A DNA stretch of 23,405 nt from a virus: the IMG/VR virus record IMGVR_UViG_3300000318_000010, positions 1-23,405 of that record; one strand, 5' to 3'. Position numbers and translations under genes: made by a program. The notes beneath the pieces were generated by a model that made no database searches, was not told where the DNA came from, and worked only from the letters and a program-made list of their open reading frames with translations. Shown here piece after piece: positions 1,118 to 22,856 of this stretch (within the stretch, counting starts at the first letter, position 1; each line of letters begins with the position of its first letter).

Positions 1118-1301
1118 AAGCCCTCCTTTGCGTAACGAAATGACTAAAAAAATTTTTCACTAACTGAGCGAAATTTGGGGTCGGCGAGCCCGCAAGGCTT
1201 GCCACCACCCCGTCACAGTACCTTTATTTTCCAGAATTATATGCTGTTGCAACTCTCTATTAGTTCGGTTGTCCCCTTACAGAAATGGATTCAATACACA
1301 A
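1118..1301. other. Non-coding region upstream of terminase genes, possible cos/pac region
   Basis: No convincing gene in this stretch, which with the two terminators to its right makes a 355-bp gap. Read on the minus strand, 1170-1215 can fold as a GC-rich nested hairpin: GGGGT pairs with ACCCC, GGC with GCC, and AGCC with GGCT around a small loop. The position just upstream of a Nu1/gpA-type terminase pair is where cos or pac sites usually lie. That assignment is inferred from position only; no cohesive-end sequence can be recognised by eye. Confidence 0.35.
1236..1241 (-). promoter_or_regulatory. Candidate late promoter -10 box (TATAAT)
   Basis: A perfect TATAAT on the minus strand lies about 120 bp upstream of the small terminase start and downstream of two terminators. 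The hexamer 17 bp upstream (ACTAAT) is a poor -35. A good -10 with no -35 is what is expected of a promoter that needs an activator, and the neighbouring gene (1473-1904) encodes an ArpU/DUF1492-like late regulator. The sequence shows only the hexamer; activator dependence is inference. Confidence 0.4.
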
Positions 1302-1322
1302 ATAGAAAGAGCCCGAAGACTC
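1302..1322 (-). terminator. Intrinsic terminator with UUCG loop
   Basis: On the minus strand GAGTC-TTCG-GGCTC forms a 5-bp stem (one G-U pair) closed by a stable UUCG tetraloop, followed by TTTCTATTTG. It is the second of two terminators downstream of the late regulator gene and separates it from the terminase operon. Confidence 0.6.
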
Positions 1323-1380
1323 AATTTGTTTTATTACTTTCTTTGTATACCTTGCATACGATTTAATTGTAAGATTCCGA

Positions 1381-1413
1381 CAAACAAAAACCGCCTCAGT
1401 TTCCCGAAGCGGT
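1381..1413 (-). terminator. Intrinsic terminator after the late regulator gene
   Basis: On the minus strand ACCGCTTC and GAGGCGGT pair (8 bp, one G-U) around the loop GGGAAACT and run into TTTTTGTTTG. It sits about 60 bp after the stop of the gene at 1473-1904 and probably ends the early/middle transcript. Confidence 0.75.
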
Positions 1414-1472
1414 CATTTATATTTCTTCACTTTAATAATAACACAGATAAACCATGACAAACAATGACAGTT

Positions 1473-1904
1473 TTATTTTTTCTCAAACCAGCTTTTATAC
1501 TTCCTATGTGCTGTACGCTGATTTATACCTGTTTCATCCTCAATCTGTTCCCATGTAAGGCCGTTTATGAACCGACACTGAAGGATCAATCTGGTTTCAC
1601 TATCCGGTATTGTAGCTATGTACTCCTGTGCTTCTGTCATCTTGTCCATCAGTTCTTTTATCCGTCGTTTAATGTTACTACGAAGCCTGTTTACCTGCTT
1701 GTCATAACCATCTACGTCAATCCCTGATATCTTGATTACATGCTGTACGTAGGGGAACAATGGCATTGAACCGGTCACAGAATCAGATGTCGTATCAACT
1801 TCAATTCGGTATTCTGCTTCTCGCAGTTGCTTCTTCAAATTTTCTATTTCCTTGCTGTAAAATTTCAACTGCGACAATTCTTGTATATTCACCGTAACCC
1901 TCAC
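1473..1904 (-). CDS. Late transcription regulator, ArpU/DUF1492-like (sigma-70 region 4-like HTH)
   Basis: Probable activator of the late (packaging and structural) operon. The C-terminal 45 residues, ETRLILQCRFINGLTWEQI followed by TGINQRTAHRKYKSW, read like a sigma region 4 helix-turn-helix, as in DUF1492, RinA and ArpU-type phage proteins. The N-terminal 100 residues are helical and charged (likely coiled coil at 15-35 and 65-95). Length 143 aa fits the family. The start is uncertain: GTG at 1904 has GAGAGGG almost abutting it, whereas GTG at 1892 follows GAGGG at normal spacing. Position between the replication block and the terminase operon, with two terminators behind it and a -35-less TATAAT further on, is the classical place for this regulator. 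Confidence 0.8.
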   Translation of the reverse strand: MRVTVNIQELSQLKFYSKEIENLKKQLREAEYRIEVDTTSDSVTGSMPLFPYVQHVIKISGIDVDGYDKQVNRLRSNIKRRIKELMDKMTEAQEYIATIPDSETRLILQCRFINGLTWEQIEDETGINQRTAHRKYKSWFEKK

Positions 1905-19148: not shown

Positions 19149-19247
19149 TTATTTCACACGCATGATCCGGTTCTGCTCTCCGGGATGCCGCTTCACGTCC
19201 CTATCGCACTGGCCTCCACTACACGGGCATATATTTGTTAATCCCAC
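19149..19247 (-). CDS. Possible cysteine-containing microprotein
   Basis: A 32-codon frame beginning at GTG inside the 3' end of the 92-aa gene, containing ICPCSGGQCDRD and a basic tail. There is no clear ribosome site, so translation would depend on coupling to the upstream gene. Part of it lies in the repeat shared with the leader at 19539-19575. It fills an otherwise empty 110-bp gap, but may be chance. Confidence 0.3.
   Translation of the reverse strand: MGLTNICPCSGGQCDRDVKRHPGEQNRIMRVK
19191..19228 (-). repeat. Imperfect ~37-bp repeat, copy 2
   Basis: Shares about three quarters of its positions with 19539-19575, including the core CCCTATCG, then CTGGC, TCCAC and CGGGC at the same spacing (plus-strand reading). 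It lies upstream of the 58-aa gene, as copy 1 lies upstream of the 92-aa gene. Confidence 0.6.
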
Positions 19248-19516
19248 GGTATTGTTCTGCCGTAATCGCTGGCACCATTCCTCAAAAATTCACAGAAACT
19301 GCTGTTTCCCATGGCGTCCTCGACATTTTTAACTCTGCCGGTTGCGAGTGCTATTAGCATCCAATTCAGATAATTGAGAGATAGCTCTCGTTTAAATAAA
19401 TCCAACTCAACTTCCTTCATGCTTTTATTGAAGTCGAGAATCTCTGACAATTTCTCAACTCTGTTTATTACTGCCACACCAAGTTTCAATTTATTTTCTC
19501 TGCTTAAAGCTTGCAT
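19238..19516 (-). CDS. Hypothetical early phage protein
   Basis: Unrecognised 92-aa helical protein (ENKLKLGVAVINRVEKLSEI, LNYLNWMLIALATGRVKNVE). The ATG follows AAGGAG at seven bases. It is the first gene after the boxA-like leader. A hydrophobic stretch LNYLNWMLIALA is probably the core of a soluble helix bundle rather than a membrane span. Function unknown. Confidence 0.7.
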   Translation of the reverse strand: MQALSRENKLKLGVAVINRVEKLSEILDFNKSMKEVELDLFKRELSLNYLNWMLIALATGRVKNVEDAMGNSSFCEFLRNGASDYGRTIPWD

Positions 19517-19727
19517 GTTTCTTCTCCTTTTTTTCGTGCTTTAGCCCCTATCGTGCTGGCTTCCACCGCTCGGGCCGATGTCATCAGTATGTAGTTTTCA
19601 AAGAACAAATCTATCTTAATGAGGCACCAATTCTCCTCAGTGGCGACAGGTATCCTGTGACCTCCCCGGACGGATCCGGATCATTGGTTTCGGCCTGTTA
19701 CCGGCAGACCATCATCGGGCAGGATTT
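19517..19727 (-). promoter_or_regulatory. Structured leader with boxA-like antitermination sequence
   Basis: A 211-bp non-coding stretch between the excisionase-like gene and the rest of the early operon. Reading leftward it holds several potential hairpins: GGTCTG/CAGGCC with a 7-nt loop, CCGGA-TCCG-TCCGG, ACAGG-ATA-CCTGT, and TGAGG/CCTCA. Then comes TGTTCTTTGAAAACTAC (19591-19607), which closely matches the boxA of Bacillota rRNA leaders, where NusB/NusE load antitermination complexes. It is followed by repeat copy 1 (19539-19575) and the ribosome site of the 92-aa gene. The arrangement recalls nut or put sites of lambdoid phages. Motifs are seen directly; antitermination function is inferred. 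Confidence 0.55.
19539..19575 (-). repeat. Imperfect ~37-bp repeat, copy 1
   Basis: First copy of the element repeated at 19191-19228, located just after the boxA-like sequence and before the ribosome site of the 92-aa gene. On the minus strand its ends GCCC and GGGC can pair. In the frame that encodes the cysteine motif in copy 2, this copy lacks the cysteines and soon meets a stop, so conservation at the DNA or RNA level is more likely than at protein level. Confidence 0.6.
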
Positions 19728-20483: not shown

Positions 20484-21116
20484 GTGGATATTATAGGGAA
20501 ATCAATAAAGCAAATTAGGGAGGACAAAAATCTTTCCACATACGATTTGTCAAAAAAAACGGGTATTTCGCAATCTACTATAAGTAAATTGGAAAACGGT
20601 AAAAGAAGCGCTGATATTGAACTCGTAAAAATAATTGCTTCAGCTTTAAAAACAGATATAAGCACAATATTAAAGGGCCCAAAGATAATGCGTGATAAGT
20701 TCTTTGATGTAATTGAGGAGAAAAATTACACAATAGAAGAATTGTCAGCAAATACTGGATTATCCTCTGTAGCGGTGAAGGAGATTCTCACTCGTTTAGA
20801 TTCCTATTATCTCGATGATTTTTATATATTAGGAAAGGTCTTGGGATTTAGCAAGGGAAGCATAGATAAAAGTTTTGAATTAGATCGCGCTGTGTACGAG
20901 CATTTTGGATATAAAGAAGTTGCAAGATCTTTAGATGATCGATACAATAAACTACTTGCAAAGGATGTTAATATCGTAAAAGAGCCCGACACTATATATA
21001 CCATCGCAGCATCCCGTATTGATGGTTATGACGAACCACTTACAGAGGATGAAGCCGCTGCAGTAAAAGCTTACTTGGAAACATACAGGAAAATGAAGCA
21101 TAATAAGAAGGATTGA
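20484..21116 (+). CDS. XRE-family lysogeny repressor (ImmR-like)
   Basis: Main immunity repressor, 210 aa. The N-terminal HTH (about 6-60: KQIREDKNLSTYDLSKKTGI, SQSTISKLENGKRSADIELV) binds DNA. Residues 65-130 contain a second segment with HTH character (YTIEELSANTGLSSVAVKEI). There is no S24/LexA autocleavage domain, so inactivation must come from another protein; the next gene, six bases downstream, encodes an ImmA-like peptidase. GTG start with AAAGGCGG upstream. Expressed from the promoter with the built-in operator, it should repress both itself and the leftward early operon. Confidence 0.87.
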   Translation: MDIIGKSIKQIREDKNLSTYDLSKKTGISQSTISKLENGKRSADIELVKIIASALKTDISTILKGPKIMRDKFFDVIEEKNYTIEELSANTGLSSVAVKEILTRLDSYYLDDFYILGKVLGFSKGSIDKSFELDRAVYEHFGYKEVARSLDDRYNKLLAKDVNIVKEPDTIYTIAASRIDGYDEPLTEDEAAAVKAYLETYRKMKHNKKD

Positions 21117-21623: not shown

Positions 21624-22856
21624 ATGCCAAATGACAAGCGAATAAAAAGAGATAAGAATGGACTCTATTATGTCCGTTATGAAGCTGGCTTTAAAGCAGA
21701 CGGCACCCGTAATCAAAAGTTCCGAGGTGGATTCTCAACTGCTGATGATGCAGAAGATTTTCTGAATGAACAAAAATATAATCTCCGCCACGGTACATAT
21801 ATCAACCCTGAAAAAACACTAGTATGCCAATACCTGAATAAATGGCTTGAGGACCGGAAGGAAGAATTAAGCCCCACAACATATTCAGGATATGAGGTGA
21901 ATATTCGCTGCCACATTAACCCGCACATCGGTGGCCTCCGGCTCCAGGATCTCAAAGCAATCCACATCAAAGATATGTACAAAGCCCTTCAAAAAGACAG
22001 AGATGTTACAATAGACAAAGAAGTAAGGCATTTTAAAAAGCTCTCTCCTAAGTCAATTTTGTATGTTCGTCGCGTATTATCAAAAGCTCTGGAGGATGCC
22101 TGTATCGATGAGATATTGGAGAAAAATGCGGCACGGACTGCAAAATCGCCAGAAGTAGCAAAACATAAAGCAAAATTTCTTTCGACAGCTCAAATAAAAA
22201 CCATGCTTGAAAAATTCGAGAACGACGATCTGTTTGTACCGGTTTATCTGGCTGTTGTTCTTGGATTGCGAAGGGGAGAAGCGCTTGGGTTAAGGTGGGA
22301 AAACATAGACTTTGACCAGAAAATAATTATGATTCGTTCAGAACTCACCATGTATGATGGCAATCCAATTTTCATTGAAGACGTGAAAACAGAAGATTCC
22401 GATAGAGATATCATCGTAACAGACAGGATAATCGAATTGCTGAAAAGGCAAAAGATCTCTCAGAAAGAGAACAAGCTTGCAATGGGCAAGAAATACATTT
22501 CAAAATTCACTTGCCAGTACTGCGTAGAAAAAGGATCTAAAATAACCGAAAAGGAAATGAAAGCAACAGACTTTATATGCACATGGCCGGACGGGGTTAT
22601 ATTTAATCCATCGCACGTAACAAGATCTTTTAAGGACAGGATGAAAAAATTTGGGCTGCCCGAGATCACATTCCATGAATTGCGGCATTCCAACGGAGCT
22701 TTGATGATTTCTCAAAACGTACAATTGAAAGGAGCTAGTGAGAGGCTCGGCCATAGTACTATTGTCATTACAAATGATTATTATGGGCATGTTGAAAAAT
22801 CCGTTCAAGAAAGCATTGCCAATACAATCGATCGAGCAATATGGAATGACGAATAG
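21624..22856 (+). CDS. int: Tyrosine integrase
   Basis: Site-specific recombinase, 410 aa. An N-terminal arm-binding domain (about 1-58: GLYYVRYEAG, FSTADDAEDFLNEQ) is followed by the core-binding SAM-like domain (65-170) and the catalytic domain. Catalytic residues: R216 in LGLRRGEALGLRW, K255 in VKTEDSDRD, H351/R354 in FHELRHS, H377 in RLGHST, and nucleophile Y387 in TNDYYGHV. An insert at about 290-322 carries C297, C300 and C319, not typical of the fold. ATG with GAGGAG eight bases upstream. It directly precedes the attachment site in the tRNA-Ser gene. Confidence 0.95.
   Translation: MPNDKRIKRDKNGLYYVRYEAGFKADGTRNQKFRGGFSTADDAEDFLNEQKYNLRHGTYINPEKTLVCQYLNKWLEDRKEELSPTTYSGYEVNIRCHINPHIGGLRLQDLKAIHIKDMYKALQKDRDVTIDKEVRHFKKLSPKSILYVRRVLSKALEDACIDEILEKNAARTAKSPEVAKHKAKFLSTAQIKTMLEKFENDDLFVPVYLAVVLGLRRGEALGLRWENIDFDQKIIMIRSELTMYDGNPIFIEDVKTEDSDRDIIVTDRIIELLKRQKISQKENKLAMGKKYISKFTCQYCVEKGSKITEKEMKATDFICTWPDGVIFNPSHVTRSFKDRMKKFGLPEITFHELRHSNGALMISQNVQLKGASERLGHSTIVITNDYYGHVEKSVQESIANTIDRAIWNDE

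Follow-up and report, generated by a model that had tools for sequence, protein, structure and literature searches.

The window, by which we mean the whole stretch of 23,405 nt that was analysed, contains the early region of a prophage, whose gene order starts with an integrase and runs through a metalloprotease-like gene to a divergent CI-like repressor (Table 1). On the minus strand, where the finding lies, the Cro-like and HTH_17 genes come first and the leader next; beyond it lie several small genes and a replication operon encoding a polymerase, helicases and an exonuclease, and after these the genes for a phrog_36 regulator and the terminase small subunit. The early operon 3′ of the leader extends over about 17 kb. 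The leader is non-coding, as originally described, and occupies the space between the stop codon of the HTH_17 gene and the start codon of a 92-aa gene; relatives of the next early proteins 3′ of it were searched for and not found. Judging from the phage genes and the type of boxA, the host probably belongs to the Bacillota, and the host genome encodes both the NusB and the Rho families. In agreement with the original prediction, scans of the early proteins (Pfam, PHROG) revealed no recognisable N-like protein, although a diverged small one is possible among them.

Table 1. Features of the early region and of the leader, with positions in the window.
Feature	Position	Strand	Basis or remark
Integrase	21624-22856	+	Start of the described gene order
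Metalloprotease-like gene			phrog_87; between integrase and CI-like repressor in the gene order
CI-like repressor, divergent	20484..21116	+	Marks the immunity/early region
Early gene 1, Cro-like HTH protein, 88 aa	20003..20269	-	Pfam HTH_3, PHROG repressor families
Early gene 2, HTH_17/excisionase-like, 82 aa	19728..19976	-	Pfam HTH_17 5.3e-12, phrog_66
Type-I hammerhead-ribozyme-like RNA	19652..19725	-	Likeness to FP_Epona, C4 relatives, pair covariation
Possible 5′-end hairpin of downstream product, ACAGG AUA CCUGU	19646..19658	-	FP_Epona counterpart
rRNA-type boxA, TTGTTCTTTGAAAACTACATA	19588..19608	-	Motif match, rRNA boxAs of the class, homologues in G017/G209
Two-helix hairpin, boxB-/put-like in position	19543..19576	-	Four-copy RNAalifold, slid controls
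First gene 3′ of the leader, 92 aa, no known family	19238..19516	-
Second hairpin copy, boxA-less, next intergenic spacer	19196..19229	-	Model R1, direct repeat D2

In bacteria, boxA is a signal that protects the transcription of rRNA. The leader carries one, TGTTCTTTGAAAACTAC, at 19607-19591 of the minus strand, exactly where it had been placed originally. In the window, TGTTCTTTGAAAACTA has one match with 0 mismatches, compared with 0.36 matches in shuffled sequences even when 3 mismatches are permitted; across the whole 3.8-Mb genome, TGTTCTTTGAAAACT has one exact occurrence and is found with 1 mismatch at two other places. The claim that this boxA is of the rRNA type is borne out by genomes of the class, which have TTGTTCTTTGAAAACTGCACA, TTGTACCTTGAAAACTGAATA and TTGCACCTTGAAAACTACATA in their 16S-23S spacers or before 23S. 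Moreover, a model made from the window boxA and two relatives matches multi-copy places in other class genomes, with several of the checked loci located in the 16S-23S interval or ahead of 23S, which identifies the motif as the rRNA boxA of the class, beyond mere resemblance. No rRNA-linked boxA of the host itself was found in its draft assembly, and the comparison rests on the class genomes.

Two other genomes, G017 and G209, contain a homologous boxA (loci L005 and L060, respectively), and the core differences between the relatives are found where rRNA and phage boxAs are variable as well. They were found through the sequence similarity of the leader and not through a boxA pattern: blastn with the leader identified the relative in the early region of G017, which as a query identified G209. 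Both regions are prophage-like early regions, with a divergent repressor seen in that of G017, and in both the boxA and the same following RNA lie just after the Cro-like gene. Overall, the boxA-hairpin unit comes after the first early regulator gene or genes in all three genomes.

The RNA that follows boxA forms a two-helix hairpin, with an outer helix of GGCCC/GGGCU and an inner tip of UGG AAG CCA. The next intergenic spacer holds a second copy, a direct repeat (D2) with 80% identity, to which model R1 assigns 20.4 bits (E 0.00093, in the window). Applied to the four known copies (two in the window and one each in G017 and G209), RNAalifold yields one structure with 11 pairs, 4 of them with changes on both sides; in particular, the pairs of the tip exchange UGG/CCA for UCC/GGA between copies. 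In this small sample, which includes two close relatives (the G017 and G209 copies), 95.5% of the cells of the consensus hairpin are paired (32-57% in slid controls) and the covariation score is 0.591. The compensatory changes point to selection. The original prediction had named a lack of covariation or conservation of the leader in related prophages as what would count against it; the comparison was run and gave no such refutation. It had also proposed at least four hairpins, which is true of a fold, but the minimum free energies of the window pieces are not clearly below those of shuffles (z from -1.5 to +0.8). The real structures were identified by comparison with relatives and not by folding energy, and the apparent richness in hairpins comprises two different things, the hairpin 3′ of boxA and a hammerhead-like RNA 5′ of it.

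Further copies of the hairpin were sought widely. Scans of IMG/VR with the hairpin sequence (GTGGARGCCAGYRCGATAGGG; AGCRCGAKAGGGGCTAAAG; GACANCGGCCNGAGCGGT; GCCNGAGCGGTNNARGNNAGC) returned no further true copies; two of the matches (L105 and L129) resemble tRNA D-arms by eye, a likeness taken as coincidence. A phylum-wide search gave no new hairpin copy, and a search of genome contigs gave one match, in Caulobacter. The weaker matches of model R1 in class genomes and IMG/VR (29 bits or less) comprise mainly the boxA part, some of them being rRNA boxAs, and blastn matches to the boxA-hairpin in plasmids and phages look like chance. Separately, the G017 early gene after the boxA-hairpin (L005, about 1267-1480, minus strand) appears to be disrupted by a frameshift and an in-frame stop when set against the 76-aa gene in L060.

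Upstream of boxA, the 5′ half of the leader aligns by blastn with Faecalibacterium phage FP_Epona (75% over 75 positions, E 0.7). The two RNAs have the same place in their operons, immediately 3′ of the second early gene's stop codon, and both have CCGAUGA where a hammerhead has CUGANGA; although the E-value alone is weak, the position is identical, and they are apparently homologous. The core, CCGAUGA...GAAA...UC, is that of a U4-to-C variant of the hammerhead, with a predicted cut between 19659 and 19658. Against RAGATH-1 (Rfam RF03152), the FP_Epona copy scores 18.7 bits, where the cut-off is 56.3. A U4C variant is reported to be active enough in vivo for viroid infectivity (PMC3088659). 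The same paper describes hammerheads that flank prophage genes and lists an inactive hammerhead-like RNA from F. prausnitzii, which may or may not be the FP_Epona RNA.

A pattern scan of IMG/VR identified the C4 core with full hammerhead folds in contigs L014 and L017; most C4 pattern matches among L008-L027 are chance and have no hammerhead fold. In L017 (2824-3155), a single 61-aa gene has a C4 type-I hammerhead on one side and a canonical type-II hammerhead (Rfam, 41.4 bits versus 37) on the other. When the matches of the same pattern are divided by the letter at position 4, hammerhead folds are found in 7 of 27 with T, in none of 21 with A or G, and in 3 of 16 with C, a count that includes FP_Epona and is partly by design because the first pattern required C4, FP_Epona itself having been found independently by blastn. 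In a loop-masked alignment of nine sequences, whose stem I was partly fixed by the search, 98.1% of the cells pair and there are 14 two-sided changes.

Among these, the window copy is the weakest. It has an A-C mismatch beside the cut (1.1-2.1) and a stem III of three pairs before an internal loop, and its hammerhead fold lies 2.4-2.9 kcal/mol above the minimum; the FP_Epona RNA has the hammerhead as its lowest-energy fold for as long as the downstream strand is absent. The window copy was not reported by a strict hammerhead scan, and an Rfam scan of the window gave no hammerhead match, although Rfam also missed the canonical relatives L146 and L147. The window hammerhead may be slow or inactive. 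Further, ribozyme stem I and the possible 5′-end hairpin of the downstream product are mutually exclusive. The FP_Epona counterpart of that hairpin is GCAGG AGCCA CCUGC, where the closing pair changes from A-U to G-C; the hairpin has accordingly been kept, and the ribozyme pair 1.1-2.1 has been lost in the window. The antitermination leader first proposed is supported in part by the rRNA-type boxA, the covarying hairpin and the nutR-like place, but more than a third of the leader is hammerhead-like, which that proposal missed.

The boxA type extends well beyond these three prophages. In 196 class genomes, the pattern TTGNNCYTTGAMAACTRMATA has 30 matches and its reversed control has 0; an rRNA marker is present in the fetched locus for only 4 of the 30. 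The same type is found in at least 119 viral contigs of IMG/VR where, of 65 distinct contexts among the matches listed, 53 fall outside long frames and none has an rRNA marker nearby. These counts indicate that boxA is common in the viral and mobile DNA of such bacteria. The RNA 3′ of phage boxAs is generally not more structured than the RNA 5′ of them (p 0.98).

Several groups of these loci, which are spread over viral contigs (IMG/VR loci L197-L276) and mobile-element-like DNA (genome loci L316-L339), have features of their own. Conserved RNA families lie 3′ of boxA, for example in L327/L329/L330 and in L331/L338/L339. Another boxA family with conserved downstream sequence comprises L062, L064, L065, L083 and L337, and in L062 and L065 the Rfam pemK RNA (RF02913) lies about 200 nt further on. 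In L222, L220, L253, L257 and L210, a hairpin and T-run resembling an intrinsic terminator is located within 90 nt past boxA, an arrangement expected of a read-through site. In three genomes (L316, L317 and L320), boxA is a few bases 5′ of an RBS-like motif that precedes a small frame, similar in all three and membrane-protein-like; these loci may represent boxA control close to the start of translation in a cellular setting.

We give an even chance to the reading in which boxA and hairpin form a nut-like module for loading host NusB/S10 onto the early transcript, preceded by a ribozyme or its remnant. Transcription from the early promoter would cross the Cro-like and HTH_17 genes and then enter the leader, where the hammerhead-type RNA would be made first and, if active, would cut the transcript at 19659/19658. 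The cut would separate the two regulator genes from the rest, and the downstream RNA would begin with the short hairpin. The boxA would emerge next, on RNA still attached to RNA polymerase, and host NusB/S10 would bind it as in rRNA operons. With the adjacent hairpin as a second contact, the polymerase would become able to withstand termination, most probably that by Rho, along the early operon. Cleavage by the window's own ribozyme is the least certain step; like it, NusB/S10 binding, resistance to termination and any coupling between the two halves of the leader are inferred.

The sequence itself supplies the boxA, the covarying hairpin, the hammerhead likeness, their positions and the host NusB and Rho families; the rRNA type of the boxA, its spread among phages, its recurrence with the hairpin just after a Cro-like gene in two other early regions, the terminator-like hairpins directly past some phage boxAs (e.g. 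L222, L220, L253 and L257) and the evidence on the hammerhead are also counted in favor of the nut-like module. Antitermination would fit a boxA at a nutR-like position. A pattern scan for intrinsic terminators on the coding strand of the early operon found none that is convincing except at 1414-1389, at the far end. This good terminator-like site (minus strand) separates the phrog_36 regulator gene from that of the terminase small subunit and is a candidate for the early/late boundary. By comparison, the conjugation operon of pLS20, which has a known processive antitermination system, contains more than 20 intrinsic terminators (PMC8955417). The scarcity of internal terminators relative to pLS20 is counted against the nut-like module, as are the lack of a recognised N-like protein, the four hairpin copies, the ordinary structure of RNA downstream of phage boxAs and the weak window hammerhead.

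Without clear internal terminators to read through, either resistance to Rho or a role in translation or RNA stability is possible. NusB/S10 bound to boxA might block or assist the ribosome and so act on the translation or RNA stability of the downstream gene, and not on termination, which we consider unlikely. There is a precedent in the E. coli suhB leader, whose 5′ UTR has a boxA no more than 50 bp from the start codon and where the Nus factors act as repressors (PMC5725501), and in some phages (e.g. L244, L241 and L205) an RBS-like motif is only 3-12 nt past boxA. However, phage boxA-to-RBS distances vary widely, from 3 to more than 200 nt, and the window boxA ends 72 nt 5′ of the start codon of the 92-aa gene, with the conserved hairpin between them. 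The nutR-like place of boxA in three prophage-like early regions fits control of transcription better.

The covariation of the hairpin and its second, boxA-less copy in the next spacer could also be those of a self-acting RNA antiterminator (put-, EAR- or canT-like), whose hairpins would bind RNA polymerase directly, with boxA secondary and a phage protein unnecessary. Since boxA is kept in all three complete copies, and Rfam scans of the leader gave no relevant match, we regard this as quite improbable. There is a similarly slim chance that the leader is chiefly a hammerhead processing site, parting the regulator mRNA from the replication operon, with boxA as a passenger or an incidental protector of the long downstream RNA. 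The FP_Epona RNA at the same place, the two hammerheads around one gene in L017 and the gene-flanking hammerheads of other prophages (PMC3088659) are all as this would have it, but the gap between the Cro-like gene and boxA in G017 and G209 is too short for a hammerhead, none is seen there, and the window copy looks weakened. Finally, a weak hammerhead fold and few known hairpin copies might suggest that the ribozyme is dead and the boxA vestigial, both now without a function, which is highly improbable given a boxA far above chance, core differences confined to naturally variable positions and a hairpin apparently under selection.

The leader is assembled from parts of known kinds. In the open-access literature, with most subscription papers excluded, neither the combination of boxA, hairpin and hammerhead nor the spread of rRNA-type boxA in phage-like contigs was found described, and no paper was found that joins boxA, prophages and Firmicutes/Clostridium in such a sense. 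Tentatively, Bacillota phages and mobile elements might widely carry rRNA-type boxA leaders attached to varied structured RNAs, which would form a large, unrecognised class of N-independent, nut-like sites for NusB/S10, coupled here to a self-cleaving ribozyme that would trim the early transcript just 5′ of the loading site. The leader points towards a so far unstudied mode of long-transcript control in Gram-positive phages, and the compact boxA-hairpin unit, together with the list of phage boxAs, makes the question directly testable. The C4 relatives of the hammerhead, in addition, supply natural variation in a catalytic core that hardly ever changes.

Each part of the leader resembles a known system. 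Like type-I hammerheads (RAGATH-1, RF03152), the upstream RNA has the three-helix order, GAAA, A15.1-U16.1, C17 and a covarying stem II; it differs in C4, an extra U after A9 and the A-C at 1.1-2.1, and Rfam is silent on it. Its intergenic position between early phage genes is that of the prophage hammerheads (PMC3088659). As in lambda nut, a boxA and a hairpin lie in an early leader after a cro-like gene (cf. nutR) and host Nus factors are available; in contrast to the N-dependent boxA-boxB of lambda, the window has a Bacillota rRNA-type boxA, a larger two-helix hairpin with an AAG/AGG tip and no N-like protein that was found. The processive antitermination systems conAn (pLS20) and canT (Tn916) similarly belong to Gram-positive mobile elements and have an RNA that opens a long operon, but by their descriptions they are set apart from the window leader, canT being a 452-nt RNA and conAn a protein with an RNA; boxA is not mentioned in the two papers on them that were searched (PMC11658703, PMC8955417). 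HK022 put and B. subtilis EAR, also structured leader RNAs of a phage early or other long operon, are set apart from it by their description as RNA antiterminators acting without a phage protein. The boxA itself is of the same sequence class as the NusB/S10-binding copies of rRNA operons, in the 16S-23S spacer and the 23S leader, and differs from them in its location in a protein-coding phage operon and in the RNA that follows it.
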